NCBI GenBank assembly: GCA_018645065.1 | Contig: JABGPF010000002.1 | Coordinates: 20,208-56,213, forward strand | DNA length: 36,006 nucleotides | DNA from: Phycisphaerales bacterium | GTDB taxonomy: Bacteria; Planctomycetota; Phycisphaerae; SM23-33 | Reading direction: 5' to 3' | Shown: piece by piece, positions 6,676 through 36,006 of the stretch | How the letters are laid out: every line of letters begins with the position of its first letter | How positions within the stretch are numbered: position 1 is the stretch's first letter | Translations under genes and position numbers: made by a program | Notes under the pieces: model-generated | What the model saw: only the letters and a program-made list of their open reading frames with translations | Databases searched by the model: none | Told to the model about the DNA's origin: nothing

Positions 6676-6822
6676 TACGCCGCTGAGCCCTTTCGCCAGA
6701 CGCAGGCATCTAAAACCAGCCGATGGTCTCGCGGCGGTGTGAGGGCGCCCATCCCCCAAGCCGCACTCGCCCGCCATGTTCACAACTGCTTCACACATAT
6801 AACGTGTGTATCTGCGGCGCGG

Positions 6823-7035
6823 AAAAGTAGTACTTCTTTTCTATGTTATAGGGTATGCAGTGGTGGGCTTGGTGTAACATGTTGCTATGTCATTGGTTAG
6901 GTTGGGCTTAGAACGCATGTTCCGGTGCGAATCGTCGCCAGCGGACTTGCAAATGATCCGAATTGGAGCTTCATACCGCGCGGTGGTGTGAAGATGTGTA
7001 AACCATCGCCGGGCCGCTGAAATTGGGACGGTCAT
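6823..7035 (+). repeat. Dispersed ~200-nt element, copy A; candidate structured RNA
   Basis: This stretch aligns with 33782-33990 in the same orientation. The first 103 nt (6823-6925 with 33782-33884) align without gaps and are about two thirds identical by hand. Conserved blocks include the opening AAAAGTRGTACTTCTTTTC, TTGTAACAT/GTGTAACAT, GGTTAGG, TGTTCCGG, TCGCC and, further on, GTGTAAAC. Many differences are transitions. A 9-bp hairpin (about 6970-6978 with 6984-6992) and a CAGCGG (6939-6944) to CCGCTG (7014-7019) pairing are visible. Stop codons interrupt the frames and changes fall at all codon positions, so it does not look protein-coding. The rest of the gap to 7300 shows only an 8-bp inverted repeat (7036-7043 with 7093-7100). 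Confidence 0.55.
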
Positions 7036-7430: not shown

Positions 7431-7802
7431 ATGCACTTGGCTAGGAACGTGGCATCAAGAAAGAATCGGCTCATTTTGGCAGTATTGACGGGCGTGCTTC
7501 CGAATCTGACTGCGTACCTTCTCGCATTGCAATACGAGTATGTTTCAACCACAAACGTGTCAGTCTATTTCGTTACTTTCTGTATGGGATTGCCTGGCGT
7601 ACTAGGCGCTACTCTTACAAATTCCCAGGTTCTTGTTTGGGTTTGCGTTCTGCTGAATCCTGTAATTGACGCCTTGTTTGTATACTGGATAGCTTCAACA
7701 AATGGGCTTTGGCAGTTGATCCTATATTACTTTGGCTATTTGTTACTAACTCGGTATGTTGCGTTTATAGTTCTTGGAACCTTCATTGCGATGCATACAT
7801 AA
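7431..7802 (+). CDS. Cassette 1: small integral membrane protein, unknown function
   Basis: This 123-aa protein starts with a basic stretch (residues 1-13) followed by three or four hydrophobic segments (about 14-34, 40-60, 65-85 and 90-118), so it is an inner-membrane protein. No catalytic motif is recognisable. A strong AGGGAG ribosome site lies 7 nt before the ATG. The stop codon is only a few bases before attC1, the compact arrangement typical of integron gene cassettes. Its function cannot be read from the sequence. Confidence 0.7.
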   Translation: MHLARNVASRKNRLILAVLTGVLPNLTAYLLALQYEYVSTTNVSVYFVTFCMGLPGVLGATLTNSQVLVWVCVLLNPVIDALFVYWIASTNGLWQLILYYFGYLLLTRYVAFIVLGTFIAMHT

Positions 7803-7805
7803 AGG

Positions 7806-7864
7806 GCTAACAAGACGCTGTGGCGGACGCGAAAAGGCCGCGCCGCTGAGCTTAAACGTTGGGC
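7806..7864 (+). other. attC site 1 of the cassette array
   Basis: A 59-nt imperfect palindrome begins GCTAACAAGACGCT and ends GAGCTTAAACGTTGGGC; the GTTGGGC core fits the GTTRRRY consensus. Inner boxes GGCGGAC and GCCGCTGAG pair around a GC-rich loop. It lies directly after the cassette 1 stop codon. Confidence 0.85.
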
Positions 7865-7878
7865 TTGGAAACAAAACA

Positions 7879-8511
7879 TTGAAGAGCGAAATATTCAAGG
7901 TGATTATCCTATCTCTATCCGTATCTATGCTTGCAGGGGGCTGTTCGGAGAGCGACAGCTTACCCAGCCAGGATAACCCACCTTCGGGACAGGATACACC
8001 CGCAGAGCTTGCGCGAAAATGGGGCAAAGCCCAACGCACTAACGATCTCAAGGCTTTTCTGGAATCCTGCACTCCCAAACATGGCGACTGGCCGAAGGCG
8101 CAGGCGGCAGCGTTGTCTATTATGACGTCGGCGTATCATTTCAAGAAAGCGCTTTTGAAACGCCACGGAGCAGATGCCTGGGAGCGTTATCAGGCGTATG
8201 GCCAGGACAGGAGCTTTATGCACATAGATGAGATTCCAGATGATGAGTCATGGACTCAGAACCTCCAGACCGTTGAAATCGACGGGAAGATGTACTTCTA
8301 TCGTTGGGACAACGATAGACACAGGATAGTATGCCGCGATGGCGTGTGGTATTTCGACTTCACTTACCATCATATTAACAAGCCATCGAGGATTGCTAGT
8401 AAGTACTTCCGACTGAGTCGGATGCTGGAACAGGTCGCAAGAAAAGTTGAAGAGAACAATGCTTCAATAGAATCTGCTGCGGAAATGATTAACAAGAAGT
8501 GGGCCGATTAA
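7879..8511 (+). CDS. Cassette 2: putative lipoprotein, unknown function
   Basis: This 210-aa protein is predicted to be a lipoprotein: a short basic N-terminus (KSEIFK), a hydrophobic core and an LAGGC lipobox near residue 20. The start is taken as TTG 7879, because the frame is open into attC1 and the preceding cassette but only this codon gives a normal signal peptide inside the cassette. The mature part is hydrophilic, with aromatic-rich stretches (MYFYRW, VWYFDFTYHH) that suggest a small soluble beta-rich domain. No family is recognised. The stop codon lies 3 nt before attC2. The exact start is uncertain. Confidence 0.65.
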   Translation: MKSEIFKVIILSLSVSMLAGGCSESDSLPSQDNPPSGQDTPAELARKWGKAQRTNDLKAFLESCTPKHGDWPKAQAAALSIMTSAYHFKKALLKRHGADAWERYQAYGQDRSFMHIDEIPDDESWTQNLQTVEIDGKMYFYRWDNDRHRIVCRDGVWYFDFTYHHINKPSRIASKYFRLSRMLEQVARKVEENNASIESAAEMINKKWAD

Positions 8512-8514
8512 ATA

Positions 8515-8577
8515 ACATAACCAGACGCTCCAGCGGCCCCCGACATGCGTCGGGACCGCAGAGCTTAAACGTTAGCT
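8515..8577 (+). other. attC site 2
   Basis: It begins ACATAACCAGACGCTCCAGCGG and ends CCGCAGAGCTTAAACGTTAGC, with the same box order as attC1. The central part contains the hairpin CCCGACATGCGTCGGG. It lies directly after the cassette 2 stop. Confidence 0.85.
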
Positions 8578-8791
8578 TCATCAGGTAATATCATGTTTCA
8601 AATCGGGTGACGCAATACATGATTATTGAGTTGCGGTTGTGATTTGTTGTTGCTAAGGTGTTTTTGAGCCAAGACTAGCGAGCGATTCGCTAATACCATA
8701 AAAAGCGGAGAGTTGTGTGTTGCCCACCGAACTCGGATCGAATTTATCGAAAAGATTGTCCGACTAATGGAGATTCAAGGGAGCCTTTTAA

Positions 8792-10048
8792 ATGACTAGG
8801 CCCATACAAGAAAAATCTCAGAAACAGCCCGATGCTCTGTTTGGACGGATTGTTTCGATTCTTGAGCAGGCGCGGGGCAATGTGGTCCGGGCGGTTAATT
8901 CCAACATGGTGCTGGCTTATTGGATGATCGGGCGGGAAATTGTAGAGGGGCTACAGGGCGGCGCGGAGCGGGCGAAATATGGCCGAACGGTGCTTGAGGA
9001 TTTGTCACGGCGGCTTACAGAACAATACGGAAAAGGGTTTTCTGTTCCGAATCTCCAGAATTTCAGGAAATTCTATCAGGCCTATTCCGGGCGAATTTCA
9101 ATTTCCTACCCGCTGGGTACTAAATTCGAAAACCCTTCAATTTCCTACTCGGCGGGTACTAAATTGGAGGGTAAAAAACTCGACCCATCTGATGGAGAAT
9201 TAGAAAGCGGGGAGAACTATCACCCAGAGGGTGATGAATCTACATCTCTTCAAAAAAGGTCCTCGGCGGGGGGCGAGTCTGTGCAAGGCTTTTCGCCACA
9301 GCTTTCGTGGTCGCATTACCGCGTATTAATGAGGGTGGAAAACACGAACGCTCGCGATTTCTATGAGCGCCAGGCCGTTGAGGGCGCTTGGAGCAAGCGC
9401 ACGCTGGAGAGACAGGTTCATACCCAATATTACGAACGTTCCCTGCACGCCCAGCAGCCTGAAAAAATGATCACCGAAGGACGGCAGTTGCAGAAAACGC
9501 CTCAGGCCACCGGTGATATGCTCAAAAACCCATATGTGCTGGAGTTTCTCGGGTATCCTAACGTTGCCGAGCTGCATGAATCCGATGTGGAGCAGGCGAT
9601 TATCACCCACTTGCAGCGTTTTCTGCTGGAACTGGGCAATGGATTTGCTTTCGTCGCCCGCCAAAAACATATCCGCATTGACGAAGAGGATCGATTCATC
9701 GATCTGGTTTTTTACCACTGTAGGCTGAAGTTCTATCTGCTTATCGATCTGAAAATAGGGAAAACCACCCATGGAGACGTGGGGCAGATGGACGGTTATG
9801 TTCGTATGTTCGATGGGCTGTTCACCGCGCCCGACGACAGTCCCACCATCGGTCTGATCCTTTGCACCGAAAAATGTGAAACCGTCGCCAGCTACTCCGT
9901 GCTCAACGACCGCAAACAGATTTTTGCCTCAAAATACATGCTTTACCTGCCGACCGAAGAGCAGCTCCGCCTGGAGATCGAGAAAGAGCGGCGGTTGATC
10001 GAGTCCGCTGGGGAGGCGCGGGATACTGACGCGAGCGGTTCGATTTAA
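8792..10048 (+). CDS. Cassette 3: YhcG-family PDDEXK nuclease (DUF1016)
   Basis: This 418-aa protein has the two-part YhcG layout. The N-terminal DUF1016_N helical domain (about 10-110) holds NVVRAVNSNMVLAYWMIGREIVE and YGKGFSVPNLQNFRKFYQAY. The C-terminal PD-(D/E)xK nuclease domain (about 230-400) shows the catalytic Asp in FIDLVFYH (about 303) and the DLK of LLIDLKIGK (about 316). The family includes presumed DNA nucleases often found near mobile and defence genes. The linker (about 105-180) contains an imperfect duplication (ISISYPLGTKFE / SISYSAGTKLE). A GGGAG ribosome site precedes the ATG. A 214-nt leader separates it from attC2, unusually long for a cassette, so it may carry its own promoter. 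A broken paralogue lies at 14431-14660. Confidence 0.88.
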   Translation: MTRPIQEKSQKQPDALFGRIVSILEQARGNVVRAVNSNMVLAYWMIGREIVEGLQGGAERAKYGRTVLEDLSRRLTEQYGKGFSVPNLQNFRKFYQAYSGRISISYPLGTKFENPSISYSAGTKLEGKKLDPSDGELESGENYHPEGDESTSLQKRSSAGGESVQGFSPQLSWSHYRVLMRVENTNARDFYERQAVEGAWSKRTLERQVHTQYYERSLHAQQPEKMITEGRQLQKTPQATGDMLKNPYVLEFLGYPNVAELHESDVEQAIITHLQRFLLELGNGFAFVARQKHIRIDEEDRFIDLVFYHCRLKFYLLIDLKIGKTTHGDVGQMDGYVRMFDGLFTAPDDSPTIGLILCTEKCETVASYSVLNDRKQIFASKYMLYLPTEEQLRLEIEKERRLIESAGEARDTDASGSI

Positions 10049-10050
10049 TA

Positions 10051-10138
10051 GCATAACAAGACGCTCCAGCGGTTCCCGACGTACCCCGACGTGCGTCGGG
10101 ACTTTCAGCATCGGGACCGCTGAGCTTGGACGTTATCG
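10051..10138 (+). other. attC site 3
   Basis: It begins GCATAACAAGACGCTCCAGCGG and ends GACCGCTGAGCTTGGACGTTATCG. At about 88 nt it is longer than its neighbours because the centre carries a nested repeat of the CCCGAC/GTCGGG hairpin. It lies right after the yhcG-like stop codon. Confidence 0.85.
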
Positions 10139-10242
10139 TAAGTAAAATGACAGGAAATGAACAACATGGATCGATACTCTAAAAACATTGCTCTTTGGAT
10201 ATTTGCACAAGGGCTCTAATAAATAGTTATGCAGATGACAAA

Positions 10243-11121
10243 ATGATTAAGGAACCAAGACAATTGCGAATCCTGATCCTTGCAGCCGGTTGGGCGGTTG
10301 TCTTGACGTTTGCTTTCCTGTGCGGTTGCGAATCCAAGGAAGCAAGGAAAGCAAGAGAAGCAAGGGAGGAGAAGGAGGCTGAGGCCTACTACGAAGAAGC
10401 CGAAGCCCATTATGAAGCGGTACGATGGGAGGAAGCCATTACTGCCTACAAGAAGGCTGTTGCCCTCAAGCCCGATTACGCTGAGGCGCACTTTGGGATG
10501 GGCTTTGTCTATTTCCGGATGGGACGAGGCCTCATGCTGGACGATCACATAGAAGCGATGGCCCGTTACAAGAGAGGTATTGCTGCCTTTGAAAGCGCTG
10601 TAGCTCTCAAGCCCGATTACGCTGAGGCATACTGCTATATGGGCGATTGCTATCGCTTTTATCTGGATTGCAAACGAGATCCACCATACGACGAGGGCCC
10701 AGATTACTACAACGCCCACCGTGAGGGTGGGGCTGCCTATAAAAAGGCTATCGCCCTCAAGCCCGATTACATTAGAGCGTACTATGGCATGGCCCACTTT
10801 TGCGGGAGCCTTGAGAGGATCACCATTTACAAGAAGATCGTCGCGATCAAGCCAGACGAAGCAACGGCGTATTTATTCATGGGTTTTGCCTATACCGAAC
10901 TTGGGCGACACGCTGATGCCATCACTGTCTACAAGAAGGCCATCGAGCAAGATGATGCTACGGCATATTTTTATATGGGCAAAGCATACGAAAATATTGA
11001 ACAATACCCAGAGGCTATCGTTGCTTACAAGAAGTACATCGCTCTTGGCCCGACAGCATACTTTTCAGGCGTGGCAAGCGAGCGTATCGAGGAGCTATCT
11101 ACAACGCAACCAGCAGATTAG
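10243..11121 (+). CDS. Cassette 4: TPR-repeat lipoprotein
   Basis: This 292-aa protein has a signal peptide with a lipobox (FLCGC, Cys about 29), then a short Lys/Glu-rich coiled stretch (KEARKAREAREEKEAEA). About six tetratricopeptide repeats follow, several with near-identical LKPDYAEA cores, so it is probably a scaffold for protein contacts on the periplasmic side. ATG 10243 is chosen over the upstream TTG 10195 because it starts directly before the basic and hydrophobic parts of the signal. The repeat units are also very similar at DNA level (CTCAAGCCCGATTAC occurs three times), which suggests recent unit duplication. The partner is unknown. Confidence 0.78.
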   Translation: MIKEPRQLRILILAAGWAVVLTFAFLCGCESKEARKAREAREEKEAEAYYEEAEAHYEAVRWEEAITAYKKAVALKPDYAEAHFGMGFVYFRMGRGLMLDDHIEAMARYKRGIAAFESAVALKPDYAEAYCYMGDCYRFYLDCKRDPPYDEGPDYYNAHREGGAAYKKAIALKPDYIRAYYGMAHFCGSLERITIYKKIVAIKPDEATAYLFMGFAYTELGRHADAITVYKKAIEQDDATAYFYMGKAYENIEQYPEAIVAYKKYIALGPTAYFSGVASERIEELSTTQPAD

Positions 11122-11124
11122 AGA

Positions 11125-11187
11125 GCATAACAAGGCGTGGCAGCGGACGGCGACGTGCATCGGGACCGCTGAGCTTAGACGTTACCG
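11125..11187 (+). other. attC site 4
   Basis: It begins GCATAACAAGGCGTGGCAGCGG and ends GACCGCTGAGCTTAGACGTTACCG. It has the same box arrangement as attC1-3, about 63 nt, and lies 3 nt after the TPR gene stop. Confidence 0.85.
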
Positions 11188-11203
11188 CTAAGAATATTGC
11201 ATC

Positions 11204-11231
11204 TTGACTTGACCGATAAAAAGACTATATT
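11204..11231 (+). promoter_or_regulatory. Promoter and possible operator of the toxin-antitoxin cassette
   Basis: TTGACT (11204-11209), a 16-nt spacer and TATATT (11226-11231) lie 18 nt before the antitoxin ATG. TGACC and GGTCA half-sites flank the -10 box and could form an operator for autoregulation, as is usual in such modules. The cassette therefore appears to carry its own promoter. Confidence 0.65.
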
Positions 11232-11249
11232 CAGGTCAGGGAGAATGTT

Positions 11250-11528
11250 ATGAAATTGAGCGAATCAATTAAGCCAATAAGCTATCTCAAAGCGCACGCA
11301 TCTGAACTTGTGCGTAATATCTCAGATGAGCACGGAACGCTCATTATCACGCAAAACGGGGAGGCCAAAGTCGTAGTGCAGGATATTGAATCTTACGAAA
11401 ACATGAAAGAGAGCCTGGCTTTGCTTAAGATGCTGGCCCAGAGTTCAAAAAGCAAAACCGAAGGCCGATTCAAACCTGCCAAGAAGGCCTTTAAGGAACT
11501 CAGGTCTCAGATTAAGGAATTGAAGTGA
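11250..11528 (+). CDS. Cassette 5a: Phd/YefM-family antitoxin
   Basis: This 92-aa protein has the Phd/YefM N-terminal DNA-binding fold: KPISYLKAHASELVRNI, then the strand-rich LIITQNGEAKVVVQDIESYE. The basic, helical C-terminal part (55-92) probably wraps and neutralises the toxin. It overlaps the toxin gene by 4 nt (GTGA), the normal antitoxin-first order of type II modules. A GGGAG ribosome site lies 7 nt before the ATG and a strong promoter lies upstream. It should bind its own promoter together with the toxin. Family identification is good, the subfamily less so. Confidence 0.88.
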   Translation: MKLSESIKPISYLKAHASELVRNISDEHGTLIITQNGEAKVVVQDIESYENMKESLALLKMLAQSSKSKTEGRFKPAKKAFKELRSQIKELK

Positions 11529-11848
11529 TCTACAGTGTGGCGATAATTGACGACGCCCAGGCCGATATACTTGCGATCTACAAGTACATCTTGGGAAATG
11601 ACTCGGTCGGCGCCGCCGATCATGTATTCGGAAAAATAGAAGAACTCTGCTACAGCTTAAATCAGCTACCTGAAAGAGGGCATGTTCCGCCCGAACTGGC
11701 GCGAATAAATGTGACCGCTTACCTGGAAGTTCATTTCAAGCCCTATCGCATAATATACGAAATTGAAGGCAAGAAGGTGTTCATTCATTGCATCCTGGAC
11801 GGACGCAGAGAACTTCAGGACCTTTTGGAAAGAAGACTGTTGCGATAA
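11525..11848 (+). CDS. Cassette 5b: RelE/ParE-superfamily toxin
   Basis: This 107-aa protein has the RelE/ParE alpha-beta layout: two N-terminal helices (DDAQADILAIYKYI, AADHVFGKIEELCYSLNQLPERGH), then beta strands (YLEVHFKPYRIIYEIEGKKVFIHCILDGRRELQDLLERRLL). The PYRIIYEIEGKKVFIHCILDGR block is the hallmark. Targets in this superfamily are ribosome-bound mRNA (RelE) or DNA gyrase (ParE), and the sequence alone does not decide between them. It starts with GTG overlapping the antitoxin stop, implying translational coupling. Its stop codon abuts attC5, so the pair travels as one cassette. Confidence 0.87.
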   Translation: MIYSVAIIDDAQADILAIYKYILGNDSVGAADHVFGKIEELCYSLNQLPERGHVPPELARINVTAYLEVHFKPYRIIYEIEGKKVFIHCILDGRRELQDLLERRLLR

Positions 11849-11901
11849 CAAATCGCTCCAGCGGACGCGAAACGACCTCACGATGAGCTTAGACATTAGC
11901 T
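11843..11901 (+). other. attC site 5 (altered right core)
   Basis: It begins CGATAACAAATCGCTCCAGCGG and ends GATGAGCTTAGACATTAGC. The right core reads ATTAGCT rather than GTTRRRY, and the inner right box (CGATGAGC for CCGCTGAGC) is also degraded, so this site may be inactive. It overlaps the end of the toxin gene. Confidence 0.75.
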
Positions 11902-14174: not shown

Positions 14175-14436
14175 GACCGCCCAAACCGTGACAAAGGTAT
14201 CGCCCCTGGGTTAGCGGCAGGACGGCACGTCCGCCTAGTTCCGACGAAGTCGGAATTGTTATCGTTATGCTTATGAGTCATTATCGCTATTTCCAGAACA
14301 CACGACCTCAAAACCCCGCGAACAACAAACAACAAACGGCGAACGGCGAAAACCATCGCGACTTCGTCACGACTAGGCGGACGTGCCGTCCTGCCGCTAA
14401 CCCAGGGGCGGTGCCCTTGTTTAGGTCTGGGCGGTC
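14175..14436. repeat. 262-bp inverted-repeat element with nested palindromes
   Basis: The arms (about 14175-14252 and 14359-14436) are inverted copies. A 39-bp core (14201-14239 with 14372-14410) is perfect. Each arm contains its own palindrome (GGACGGCACGTCC). The ~106-bp interior is A+T-rich and has no open reading frame. Arms of this length folding on one strand resemble a MITE-like or hairpin mobile element. No target-site duplication is obvious, and the right arm merges with the broken yhcG copy. Confidence 0.75.
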
Positions 14437-14660
14437 AATTCCAACATGGTGCTGGCTTACTGGATGATCGGACGGCGTATGGGAAACAGCTCATGGAAGA
14501 CCTTTCTTCGCGATTGACGGAGCGGTATGGGAAAGGGTTTTCAGTTACAAACCTCCGGCACTTTCGCTTGTTCTATCAAGCCTATTCAGACCGTATAGCA
14601 ATTCATCACCCAGCGGGTGGCGAATTGGAGCGTCTGGTGGGCATTGGGGTAAGCTCTTAA
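14431..14660 (+). pseudogene. Truncated YhcG/DUF1016 N-terminal remnant
   Basis: Read in two frames this encodes VNSNMVLAYWMIGR, then after an internal deletion YGKQLMEDLSSRLTERYGKGF and SVTNLRHFRLFYQAYSDR, ending at TAA 14658-14660. It matches residues about 35-110 of the intact cassette 3 nuclease but lacks the REIVEGLQGGAERAK segment, is frameshifted there, and has no nuclease domain. The 5' part is cut by the right arm of the inverted repeat. It is clearly non-functional. It is a relative, not a recent copy, of the gene at 8792, since third codon positions differ widely. Confidence 0.85.
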
Positions 14661-32864: not shown

Positions 32865-33704
32865 ATGAAAATCCGATTGGTGGCGATAGATCTTGACGGG
32901 ACGCTGCTGAACTCGGCTAAGGAGATCACCGAGACTACCGCGAGGATCATCCGAACAGCTCGGGAAGTAGCCGGTGTGCGCGTGGTGCTGGCGACGGCAA
33001 GACCACCGCGGACCGTCCTTCCGTTCTATTCGCTGCTGGGACTTAATACCCCGATGATCAACTACAACGGAGCCCTGGTGCACGAACCGGACACCGGACG
33101 GATTATCCTGCACAGGCCAATGGAAGCAAAGCTCGCACGAGCGATTGTAACTATCGCCCGCGAGATGTACCCCCCGGTGCTCGTGTCGGCGGAGGTTCTG
33201 GATAACTGGTACACCGATCAGGCTGGGGATGACTGGCAGAGCGAAACGGCGAGATTAAACGAACTTGCGTACACCGTTGCGCCCATAAACCAGTGGCTTA
33301 ACCAACCGATCACCAGGCTCCACCTGCTGGGCCCGAAAGACTGGTTAACCAAAATCCGGCTGGCGGTCAAAGCCAAGCTCCCCGGACAGGTGGCGATGGT
33401 CTGGAGCGAAACCATGATGTTGCAGGTCATGAACCCCTCCGCCGGTAAGCGAGCGGCGCTCAGAACCGTCGCTACGGAAATGGAACTGCTCGCCGAGGAA
33501 GTAATGGCCATCGGTGACAACGCCAACGACGCCGGGATGCTCCAGTGGGCGGGGATAGGCGTAGCGATGGCCAACGCCTCGCCATATGCACGGAAATACG
33601 CGGACTACGTGACAGACGCCAACGATGCCGACGGGGCGGCTAAGGCGATCGAAAAACTGATCGTGGGACCAGCAATAGAGGACCCGGGCGATCTGCAACT
33701 CTAA
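32865..33704 (+). CDS. Cof-type HAD-superfamily phosphatase
   Basis: This 279-aa hydrolase shows HAD motif I DLDGTLL (Asp9 nucleophile, Asp11), motif II ATARP, motif III Lys in GKRAAL, and motif IV GDNANDAGM. The large type IIB cap lies between (about 85-190). Family members dephosphorylate sugar phosphates, flavin precursors or similar small molecules in the cytoplasm. The length is typical. The gene is divergent from the exported repeat proteins and has no obvious operon partner. The substrate is not determinable from sequence. Confidence 0.93.
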   Translation: MKIRLVAIDLDGTLLNSAKEITETTARIIRTAREVAGVRVVLATARPPRTVLPFYSLLGLNTPMINYNGALVHEPDTGRIILHRPMEAKLARAIVTIAREMYPPVLVSAEVLDNWYTDQAGDDWQSETARLNELAYTVAPINQWLNQPITRLHLLGPKDWLTKIRLAVKAKLPGQVAMVWSETMMLQVMNPSAGKRAALRTVATEMELLAEEVMAIGDNANDAGMLQWAGIGVAMANASPYARKYADYVTDANDADGAAKAIEKLIVGPAIEDPGDLQL

Positions 33705-33781
33705 CACTGGCCTGCTGGCTGGTGCACGTCGCCCACGTTTACAATAGGTTTACAGCTATGACGTTGTCAACCATGACTCGT

Positions 33782-33990
33782 AAAAGTGGTACTTCTTTTC
33801 CATGTCATGGGTCGCACGAAGAAGCGGTTGTTGTAACATCCTATGGCGTAGTGGGTTAGGGTGGGTTTGTTGCGGGTGTTCCGGTCTGGGGCATCGCCTC
33901 CGGGCTCGTAAAGCGTCGGATCGGAGGTTAACAGATCCAGGAGGTGTAAACGTGCGGGAATTCGCCGGCTGGGGCGGATTGCGACCCCTG
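33782..33990 (+). repeat. Dispersed ~200-nt element, copy B; candidate structured RNA
   Basis: This is the second copy of the element at 6823. It starts at AAAAGTGGTACTTCTTTTCC and shares the blocks TTGTAACAT, GGTTAGGGTGGG, GTGTTCCGG, TCGCC, GTGTAAAC and CGCCGG. Its central hairpin differs in sequence from copy A (GGATC ... GATCC; alternatively CCTCCG ... CGGAGG). An outer pairing CGCC/CCGG (33895-33903) with CCGG/GGCG (33965-33976) sits near the place where copy A pairs CAGCGG with CCGCTG. It lies in a convergent intergenic gap. No protein frame is conserved. Confidence 0.55.
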
Positions 33991-34004
33991 CGATAATGCG
34001 TCAC

Positions 34005-34160
34005 AACGGCACCGCGGCGACACGCCGCGGCTCCGCCCAGGCGATACTGGGCGCAATAGTTGCTTTGTTAATCGAGCCATTTTAAATTTCAATTTCAACA
34101 ATAAACGTTATCGTTACTGCGCGTCTGGGCAGAGCCGCGGCGTGTCGCCGCGGTGCCGTT
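34005..34160. repeat. 156-bp inverted-repeat element with nested palindromes
   Basis: The arms 34005-34040 and 34125-34160 are inverted copies with one mismatch in 36. Each arm contains a CCGCGGCG ... CGCCGCGG palindrome. The A+T-rich middle contains GTTATCGTTA, a motif also found in the interior of the element at 14175-14436. Related GCGTCAC sequence flanks both sides. It resembles a miniature hairpin element. Confidence 0.75.
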
Positions 34161-34232
34161 ATTGCGCGTCACGAGCAGAAGATACCCACTAACCGTCACG
34201 AACCCCAAGAAGTGTGAGGAGCCGCCGCATTT

Positions 34233-34282
34233 CAAATTACGGCTTAACGGCGTACGGCTTTGCGTACCCGCACCGTAATTTG
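34233..34282 (-). terminator. Long hairpin after rsmH, possible terminator
   Basis: A perfect 10-bp outer stem (CAAATTACGG 34233-34242 with CCGTAATTTG 34273-34282) encloses smaller palindromes. It lies directly beyond the rsmH stop, but the minus-strand T-run is poor. It may act as a terminator or a 3'-end stabiliser. Confidence 0.5.
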
Positions 34283-34290
34283 GGTAACGG

Positions 34291-35367
34291 TCAGGCCCCT
34301 GCGCGTCGGGCCCAGCGGAGTTTGGCTGAGTTGCTGCGGGGGTTTAGGTGGGCTTCCTGGCTGGTGGCGCGGATTACTCGGTCGCTTTGGGCTTCGTAGA
34401 CGCCTTGGCGAAGACCGTCGCGGAAGGCTTGCTTTACCAGGCGGTCTTCCCCGCTGTGGAAGCTGATGATCCCGATCCTGCCGCCGGGGCGCAGGCAATG
34501 CGGCGCCAAACGCAACAGTTGCCTTATCGCAGATAGTTCGTCATTCACCAGTATTCGCAGGGCCTGGAATGTCCGCATCGCCGGGTGCCCGTCGCTGCTG
34601 GATGACTGTTTCTTCCAGATGGCCTCTGATGTGCCTTTGGCGGTGAAGATCAGTTCCTTGAGTTGGCCTATGGTGGTCAGGGGCGTTGCGTTCCGCTGAG
34701 CGACGATCTGCTGGGCGATCTCTTCATGGTCCGGTTCGTCGGCCAGTTCCCACAGTGCTGCCGACAGTTCGTCCGGGCTTAGCGAGGCCAGCAAATCTGC
34801 CGCGGTTCGCTGGCGTCGTGAGTCCATTCGCATGTCAAGCGGGGCGTTGTCATGCCTGTAGCTCATCCCGCGCGCCGGATCGTCGATCTGCATGCTGGAG
34901 ACGCCCAGGTCGGCGAAAATGATATCGTACCCGTCCAGGCCCTCCTGGCCCATCACCTTGGCGATACCGGCGAAATTTGCGTGGTGAACGCTGATCGGCA
35001 AGCCCGCAGCCGTCAATCGGTCCTTCGTTCGGGCCAGTTCCTTCGCGTCGATATCGAATCCGATGACCCTTCCGCCTGGTTGCACCGCCTGGGCCAGTGC
35101 TGTCGCATGACCGCCATATCCCAGCGTGCAGTCGGCGACAATATCGCCCGGGCGGGGCGCCAGGGCCTCGACCACCTCGCTCATCAGCACCGGAACGTGC
35201 GCTCCAGCCGGAGTGCGCCTACGCTCGCGAATGTGCTGGATCATATCGGCGTCGCCGGAGAGTTCCTTGTAACGCTGCTCGAAGCGGCGCGGGTGGCTTC
35301 CGGAATAACGCTTTCGCCGACGAGGTTTCTCGTCGCCGGTGGTTTGGTTGTCGCTCTGGTCTGTCAT
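34291..35367 (-). CDS. rsmH: 16S rRNA (cytosine-1402-N4)-methyltransferase RsmH (MraW) with basic N-terminal extension
   Basis: This 358-aa SAM-dependent methyltransferase modifies N4 of C1402 in the decoding centre of 16S rRNA. The core starts at HVPVLMSEVVEAL (about 57). Motif I is VADCTLGYGGHA (about 77-88). Other family markers are IIFADLGVSSMQIDDPARGMSYRHDNAPLDMRMD, AMRTFQALRILVNDEL and IISFHSGEDRLVK. Residues 1-55 are a charged extension (PRRRKRYSGSHPRRF) absent from E. coli RsmH. The start ATG 35367 is chosen because the longer frame would cross the promoter -10 box; ATG 35379 overlaps that box. The normal neighbours (mraZ, ftsL, ftsI) are absent, so the dcw-cluster context is lost here. 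Confidence 0.95.
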   Translation of the reverse strand: MTDQSDNQTTGDEKPRRRKRYSGSHPRRFEQRYKELSGDADMIQHIRERRRTPAGAHVPVLMSEVVEALAPRPGDIVADCTLGYGGHATALAQAVQPGGRVIGFDIDAKELARTKDRLTAAGLPISVHHANFAGIAKVMGQEGLDGYDIIFADLGVSSMQIDDPARGMSYRHDNAPLDMRMDSRRQRTAADLLASLSPDELSAALWELADEPDHEEIAQQIVAQRNATPLTTIGQLKELIFTAKGTSEAIWKKQSSSSDGHPAMRTFQALRILVNDELSAIRQLLRLAPHCLRPGGRIGIISFHSGEDRLVKQAFRDGLRQGVYEAQSDRVIRATSQEAHLNPRSNSAKLRWARRAGA

Positions 35368-35377
35368 TATCGGCTGC

Positions 35378-35386
35378 ATTATAACA
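35378..35386 (-). promoter_or_regulatory. Extended -10 promoter of rsmH
   Basis: On the minus strand TGTTATAAT (TGn plus consensus TATAAT, 35386-35378) ends 10 nt before the ATG at 35367. No good -35 is seen. The implied leader of 4-5 nt would make the mRNA nearly leaderless. Confidence 0.6.
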
Positions 35387-35532
35387 GCCCAGGGGCGATG
35401 GCGGATAAATTTTAAAAAACAGCGATGATTCTGTGAATAGTCCTGTTTGTCGGAATAGTCCTGCGGGTGGCGTATTTCTCCCGTTCCGACGTCGTAATAT
35501 GCTATAAATACCGTAATATATCGCTTTTCCTC

Positions 35533-35561
35533 TTGCCAAAGTCGGCTTCCTGTGATACTAT
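35533..35561 (+). promoter_or_regulatory. Promoter of the C-terminal-window exported gene
   Basis: TTGCCA (35533-35538), a 17-nt spacer and TACTAT (35556-35561) with TGA before the -10 (extended -10 type). It gives a predicted start near 35568 and a leader of about 155 nt. Confidence 0.65.
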
Positions 35562-35569
35562 TATGTAGG

Positions 35570-35704
35570 TCCGTCGAGGGACGGATTGTAGGTAGAGCCA
35601 GAGGTGGCGAGATTATTTGCATGTTGAGGGTCTCGCCTGGAACGGTTGCGGTTCGTGAGATTTCACACCGCACCCGTAATACAATTGGTTGAAGCCCAGC
35701 CAAT
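35570..35704 (+). promoter_or_regulatory. Strongly folded 5' leader, possible regulatory RNA
   Basis: Four hairpins lie in a row between the promoter and the ribosome site: TCCGTC-GAGG-GACGGA (35570-35585); GGCGAGA ... TCTCGCC (35606-35637); a composite ~13-bp stem ACGG, TGCGG, GTGA with its complements (35642-35677); and ATTGG ... CCAAT (35684-35704), which ends just before AGAGGA. No known riboswitch consensus is recognised. Confidence 0.5.
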
Positions 35705-35722
35705 AATAGAGGATATATCATC

Positions 35723-36006
35723 ATGAGGATATTACGCGATAGCACACGTAAGTGTGTTGCAGTTCTTACTGTGGCGGCCTTGCTCGCCATATTTGGGCTT
35801 AACGCCCAGGCGGGAATCATTCTGCCTGGAGGTCTGGTGGGCAACGACCTGACCGATCCTGAAGACGACGGGTCACTGGCCGGTACGGTGACATATTCGG
35901 CCCAGAAGAACGATACAGAAGGAGCGCTGAAGGCGTTTGATAACAGTGCGAGCACCAAGTGGTACACCACCAGCAGCACCCCCATGCCGCATTTTATCAC
36001 GTTCCA
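35723..36006 (+). CDS. Exported protein with F5/8 type C-like domain (partial, runs off the window)
   Basis: The first 94 residues are present. A signal peptide (MRILRDSTRKCVAVLTVAAL, ending near LNAQA) is followed by a region containing AFDNSASTKWYTTSS. That resembles the start of a discoidin (F5/8 type C) carbohydrate-binding domain, where A-D-x-T-x-W is the usual pattern. AGAGGA lies 9 nt before the ATG. Exported proteins of this type in planctomycetes often end in PEP-CTERM anchors, but the C-terminus is outside the window. The frame stays open to the end. Confidence 0.75.
   Translation, partial: MRILRDSTRKCVAVLTVAALLAIFGLNAQAGIILPGGLVGNDLTDPEDDGSLAGTVTYSAQKNDTEGALKAFDNSASTKWYTTSSTPMPHFITF

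Follow-up and report, generated by a model that had tools for sequence, protein, structure and literature searches.

Bacterial MITEs are short, non-coding elements with many intergenic copies, terminal inverted repeats and no gene of their own. The repeat family described here shares all of these properties, but it lacks a target duplication at its core ends, has one sharp and one variable end, and no cognate insertion sequence was found for it. In Helitrons a hairpin near the 3' end acts as terminator and its bypass leads to transduction of flanking sequence, as set out in PMC4778049. With Helitrons and IS91 the element has in common a fixed end, a variable other end, a hairpin-like right module and the lack of a target duplication. 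It differs from them in that no HUH transposase is linked to it, and Y2_Tnp is absent from two of the three genomes compared. REPINs and REPs are dispersed extragenic palindromic mobile DNA, and REPs are also targets of insertion sequences, according to PMC3116915 and PMC1525189. The element is likewise dispersed, extragenic and palindromic, but it is longer (ca. 230 bp) and has phased direct repeats and a 25-bp dyad. A regulon of operator sites that evolves with its regulator consists of many sites with a common motif in one state per species. The same holds for the element, which however has a compound 230-bp architecture, terminal inverted repeats and no fixed relation to gene starts. Among the papers listed for repeats and mobile elements of Planctomycetes and repeats of Phycisphaerae, and for the motif and its analogues, no description of the element was found, which is not proof that it is unpublished.

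Copies A and B in the window

The window, the 36,006-nt stretch of DNA that was analysed, comes from a 5.85-Mb draft genome made up of 529 contigs, here called the source genome. It was compared with two sister genomes of the same genus, G001 and G002; each of the three is about 90% complete. A covariance model, R1, was built from 27 copies in the source genome including the two in the window, A and B, so that these 27 match by construction. Copy B, one unit (core) of the element, runs from 33734 to 33961 on the plus strand (191.5 bits over the full model), and copy A, which adjoins uvrA, from 6775 to 7003 on the same strand (196.4 bits). The sequence-only reading had placed the element at 33782–33990. 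The copy is real, but that interval starts 48 and ends 29 bases too late. When the region 33701–34320 was compared with the window by blastn, the second copy appeared at 6774–6926 (68% over 159 columns, E 1e-5). With up to two mismatches, the motif TTYACAAWWGSTTYACA occurs exactly twice in the window, inside A and B (chance 0.05). The same is true of the dyad TAAC-N17-STTA, for which both strands match, giving four matches against a chance mean of 0.88.

The left end of copy B, TTTACAATAGGTTTACA, is an exact pattern match on the plus strand at 33738–33754, contains two TTTACA repeats 11 bp apart and forms the sharp left boundary of the family. It is followed at 33771–33810 by an imperfect palindrome, CCATGACTCGTAAAAG..CTTTTCCATGTCATGG, with GTAC in the loop, which was detected as a blastn self-match to the opposite strand and is conserved in copies, and at 33834–33858 by a pattern match to the dyad TAAC-N17-GTTA. 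The right module, GGTTAACAG..GGTGTAAACGTG, lies on the plus strand at 33927–33954 and was delimited from its sequence, its predicted terminal pairing and the end-to-end covariation in the family. Its final 10 bases are an inverted repeat of the left-end CACGTTTACA, so that copy B carries the terminal inverted repeats CACGTTTACA..TGTAAACGTG characteristic of MITEs. In copy A the left end TTCACAACTGCTTCACA matches the pattern with one mismatch (6779–6795, plus strand) and the same dyad was found by pattern match at 6875–6899. Outside the left end of copy A, a plus-strand sequence with approximate boundaries at 6703–6774 aligns with copies that lie inside a larger, CAGGGC-ended MITE, as seen by long-form alignment and a search for terminal inverted repeats.

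Copy B starts about 30 bases past the stop codon of a HAD gene (Hydrolase_3, 32865–33704, plus strand) and is followed by rsmH (Methyltransf_5, ORF 34291–36000, minus strand), which agrees with the earlier description of the gap as convergent. The first 24 bases of copy A (6775–6798) lie within the longest uvrA ORF, whose start is at 6798; the true start of uvrA is therefore probably further inside the gene. A coding function of the minus-strand ORFs in the two copies was set aside, as their translations appeared unrelated by eye. To the right of copy B, at 33998–34167, the window contains a long inverted repeat with 46-nt arms that are 89% complementary and separated by 78 nt. Very similar arms also occur right of copies L127 and L137.

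A dispersed repeat family of one genus

A genome-wide copy count, which the sequence-only reading had asked for, gave 58 distinct places with at least 50 bits (R1) in the source genome and thus a dispersed family. Subfamily 1 comprises 28 places above 165 bits, 27 of which are the model's own sequences, whereas the 30 places of subfamily 2 score 50–106 bits and follow the same plan. The length of subfamily 1 is nearly constant, mostly 227–230 nt, and roughly one additional 11-bp repeat lengthens some copies. Exact matches to the left-end motif KTYACAAWWGSTTYACA numbered 68 in the source genome, 40 in G001 and 59 in G002, against at most one for the reversed control; the 57 other relatives had none, and a plain DNA search of 60 relatives returned next to no matches to the element. 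Among the genomes searched the element is specific to this genus of marine Planctomycetota.

The neighbourhood was surveyed for 60 copies, with genes called by a simple codon-score predictor; two members of the model alignment, C301 and C529, were left out and four weak copies (27–43 bits) were included. All 60 are intergenic, any overlap with a predicted gene being 60 bases at most. They lie in 18 divergent, 14 + 6 co-directional and 12 convergent gaps, with 10 at contig edges where the right neighbour is missing. No Pfam family occurs more than three times among the 103 flanking proteins. The copies thus do not all lie upstream of genes with a shared function, the outcome that the sequence-only reading had named as its refutation, and its view that the shared sequence is not an upstream regulatory region of uvrA was borne out. 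We rejected such a region on account of the mixed gene orientations, the lack of a recurrent neighbour family and the convergent gaps that hold 12 of the 50 copies for which a gene was predicted on each side.

On its left the element has a pair of TTYACA repeats at a distance of 11 bp, followed towards the right by a third, inverted repeat, the palindrome, the dyad TAAC-N17-STTA and a TTYACAC..GTGTGAA module. The palindrome is centred on GTAC (GGAAAAGTRGTACTTCTTTTCC or GATAAGTRGTACYACTTATCC) and is absent from some sister-genome copies; the exact form of the dyad is also missing in some copies. When spacings of 8–29 were scanned, the distance between TAAC and STTA was 17 in 30 of 41 pairs in the source genome, 8 of 12 in G001 and 19 of 20 in G002, while in these same pairs a spacing of 16 was never found and one of 18 once. 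The two ends covary: 51 of 56 copies combine TTCACA with TGTGAA or TTTACA with TGTAAA (Fisher 5e-10, a test in which related copies were counted though they are not independent), and the association is significant in both subfamilies. The rigid spacing and the 11-bp phasing point to protein binding to DNA and suggest that the element works as protein-recognised DNA.

Two other types of repeat were noticed. Fold-back MITEs that have CAGGGCTTACGCATCTAAA-like ends and a different palindromic interior are present in L064 at 1102–1519 (C300) and in L065 at 1501–1882 (C334), one of them with a perfect 10-bp target duplication. A long palindrome in L121 (960–1048) gave weak Rfam scores below gathering, on both strands, to plant and animal microRNA families, probably due to its shape alone.

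Fixed left ends and changing right flanks

In-register matches between copies of the same genome end on the left between −12 and +30 of the left motif in 1030 of 1218 pairs in the source genome and in 90 of 98 and 71 of 80 pairs in the other two, whereas the right ends of the same matches are spread. The match reaches beyond this left boundary in 188 of the 1218 source-genome pairs, partly because some copies sit inside the CAGGGC-ended MITE. In four units in G002 that carry a gene for a helix-turn-helix (HTH) protein, close similarity begins at the left motif and the sequence preceding it is unrelated; on the right two of them diverge near the end of the HTH gene and two remain alike for several hundred bases further. 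No convincing excess of direct repeats that would represent a target-site duplication was found at the core ends of 60 copies. Target-site duplication is not expected for rolling-circle elements, so its absence fits that type. A fixed end, a variable other end and no target duplication, the combination characteristic of IS91 and Helitrons, are thus found together.

For comparison between species duplicate loci were merged, leaving 80 copies in the source genome, 40 in G001 and 45 in G002, the latter being a part of at least 59. Pairs in which left flank matched left flank numbered 19 (6, 8 and 5 in the three pairwise genome comparisons), among them L127/L295, where the distances differ. Right flanks matched right flanks at two positions, both of which also match on the left, and in five further cases from the HTH gene family; the right flanks of L309, L147, L221 and L293 are too short to judge. 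Three left–right cross matches were found. Synteny to the right of the element resumes at 288 versus 6253, 711 versus 6471, 4124 versus 349 and 5466 versus 6129 bases, and directly right of the element in L341/L342; at four other loci it does not resume within the stretch fetched. At three of the five loci with rematched right flanks one species has 3.8–5.8 kb of extra DNA directly right of the element, including accessory genes such as an IrrE/DUF4411 pair, and no second left motif is present in this inserted DNA. The contig ends less than 1 kb away on the right in 21, 7 and 3 copies and on the left in 2, 0 and 0 (31 versus 2 of 165 copies in total). Judged by flank matches, synteny gaps and contig ends, the left side of the element is stable and the right side changes between species. 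Reciprocal exchange between copies was rejected as the cause of the one-sided flanks, since it should give right-only matches and none were found apart from the repeated HTH gene family.

Among the 80 + 40 + 45 copies, 15 positions are shared between species, one of them doubtful. The distance from the motif to the left gene is nearly equal at shared positions (13/14, 18/19 and 21/21 bases), while the spacer there is hardly alignable. The first base of the outer repeat is T in 80 of 80 copies in the source genome, G in 34 of 40 in G001 and T in 41 of 45 in G002, and the species state is seen at most shared positions as well. Dead copies would not keep such a species-wide state; it is either held by selection for protein binding or renewed in place.

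To the right of copy A the window contains, at 7800–11900, what we take to be a gene-cassette array, with about five sites that we recognise as attC-like, near 7806–7862, 8512–8577, 10050–10138, 11127–11186 and 11846–11899. The genes among them encode a YhcG/DUF1016 nuclease, a TPR protein and a Phd/ParE pair, besides one unnamed ORF; in the ORFs scanned, no integrase was recognised. At 14175–14475 lies an inverted repeat whose arms measure 90 nt, together with a 52-nt fragment that duplicates part of the YhcG nuclease gene. Integron cassettes were rejected as the general right-hand content, since attC-like cores occur right of only 3 of 82 source-genome copies and of none in the sister genomes.

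ISAs1 transposase was not found in the source genome, and IS91-type Y2_Tnp (PF04986) is absent from the source genome and G001, both ca. 90% complete. G002 has a single Y2_Tnp copy, with the motif not nearby. Neither transposase could be linked to the element, and both were set aside as its mover. The larger units with the HTH gene have the same left end as the element, but no transposase that would mark them as an autonomous parent was seen in them. The HTH protein has 180–290 residues and a weak likeness to phage terminase small subunits (PHROG E 2.6e-5), with four matches in G002, three in the source genome and two in G001. Its gene lies right of a left motif in four of four cases in G002 and two of three in the source genome; the two in G001 start at contig ends. 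A structure predicted for 179 residues has confident N-terminal helices and a mean pLDDT of 67, and its best PDB match is phBC6A51 (E 0.02, with none at 0.001 or better). The HTH protein may be regarded as a candidate recognition protein, as a lead only.

Readings of the element

The best reading of copy B, about which we are evenly divided, is that it is a unit of a non-coding mobile DNA element that is genus-specific and non-autonomous and whose left end is fixed. One protein would recognise the TTYACA repeats, with their 11-bp phase and opposite orientation at the ends, together with the central TAAC-N17-GTTA dyad. Copies would spread from the fixed left end with a varying right end, in a one-ended, rolling-circle-like or similar manner, and sequence taken up or inserted on the right would travel with the element. 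The sequence-only reading had proposed an independent RNA or mobile unit; the mobile unit is supported by the four sister-genome units that begin exactly at the left-end motif. Against mobility stand the search for ISAs1 and IS91-type transposases, which found none for the element and only the one Y2_Tnp away from the motif, a left boundary that is not universal, and inherited positions whose species-wide motif state is not given by plain decay of dead copies. Furthermore, an exact empty site was not found. The closest named relatives by HAD protein are Phycisphaerae MAGs (Planctomycetota, 78–79% identity), and because the two examined carry a different gene after HAD, without the element, the empty site of copy B cannot be reconstructed from them.

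The rigid spacings, the 11-bp phasing, the outer repeat in one state per species and the motif conserved at orthologous positions next to a hardly alignable spacer would also be expected of a domesticated binding site, with copies kept in place for a chromosomal protein (a nucleoid organiser, insulator or regulator) and changing together with its preference; no single gene function is found nearby. This alternative deserves serious attention but is unlikely, as most copies are off the shared positions and the four similar units with unrelated left flanks demonstrate spread. The extra accessory DNA right of the element at three of five loci and the cassette-like array right of copy A could instead mean that the element is an insertion hotspot or attachment site where accessory DNA repeatedly integrates just to its right. 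We consider this improbable in view of the missing second left motif, the scarcity of attC-like cores and the four loci at which synteny did not resume within the fetched stretch.

If the element were an ordinary MITE of the cut-and-paste kind, with inverted repeats at its ends and duplicated target sites, this would explain why some copies lie inside a 424–570 bp element with CAGGGCYTRCGCATCTAAA ends (28 end matches versus 4 in the reversed control) and why a perfect 10-bp duplication flanks one related CAGGGC-ended element that does not contain the core. These ends are missing from most copies, however, the duplication is weak for some core carriers, and there is no convincing duplication at the core ends themselves. 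Of five paired CAGGGC elements, three contain the core and two a different interior; the core is therefore a passenger in them. For copy B the MITE explanation is weak, no CAGGGC end being reported on its contig, and overall we hold it to be quite improbable. A family of structured non-coding RNAs, the other half of the earlier proposal, is the explanation to which we attach hardly any weight. The consensus fold of subfamily 1 is better on the plus than on the minus strand (−73.7 versus −55.5), with 225 G-U against 61 A-C cells and a mean z of −3.4, and single changes outside helix 4 (72 G-U versus 34 A-C) also lean towards RNA and against the favoured mobile reading. On the other hand, the mean z of the minus strand is nearly equal (−3.2), subfamily 2 (14 copies folded) favours the minus strand (−60.9 versus −47.5), double-change pairs in subfamily 1 number 10 against 11.3 in shuffles, so that compensatory change is not above chance, and Rfam gave no match on the element.

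A further possibility, rather unlikely, is that the 40–80 protein-bound elements per genome act as one-sided boundaries at which the left gene stays, the DNA on the right is exchanged, and the outer repeats shift together following one protein. If the mobile reading is true, one end of this bacterial mobile repeat would be fixed and the other open, and the repeat may collect genes on one side, which would matter for a phylum about whose genome plasticity little is known. Because the outer repeat shows one state per species even where positions are inherited, sequence data suffice to test whether a repeat family and its recognition protein coevolve.
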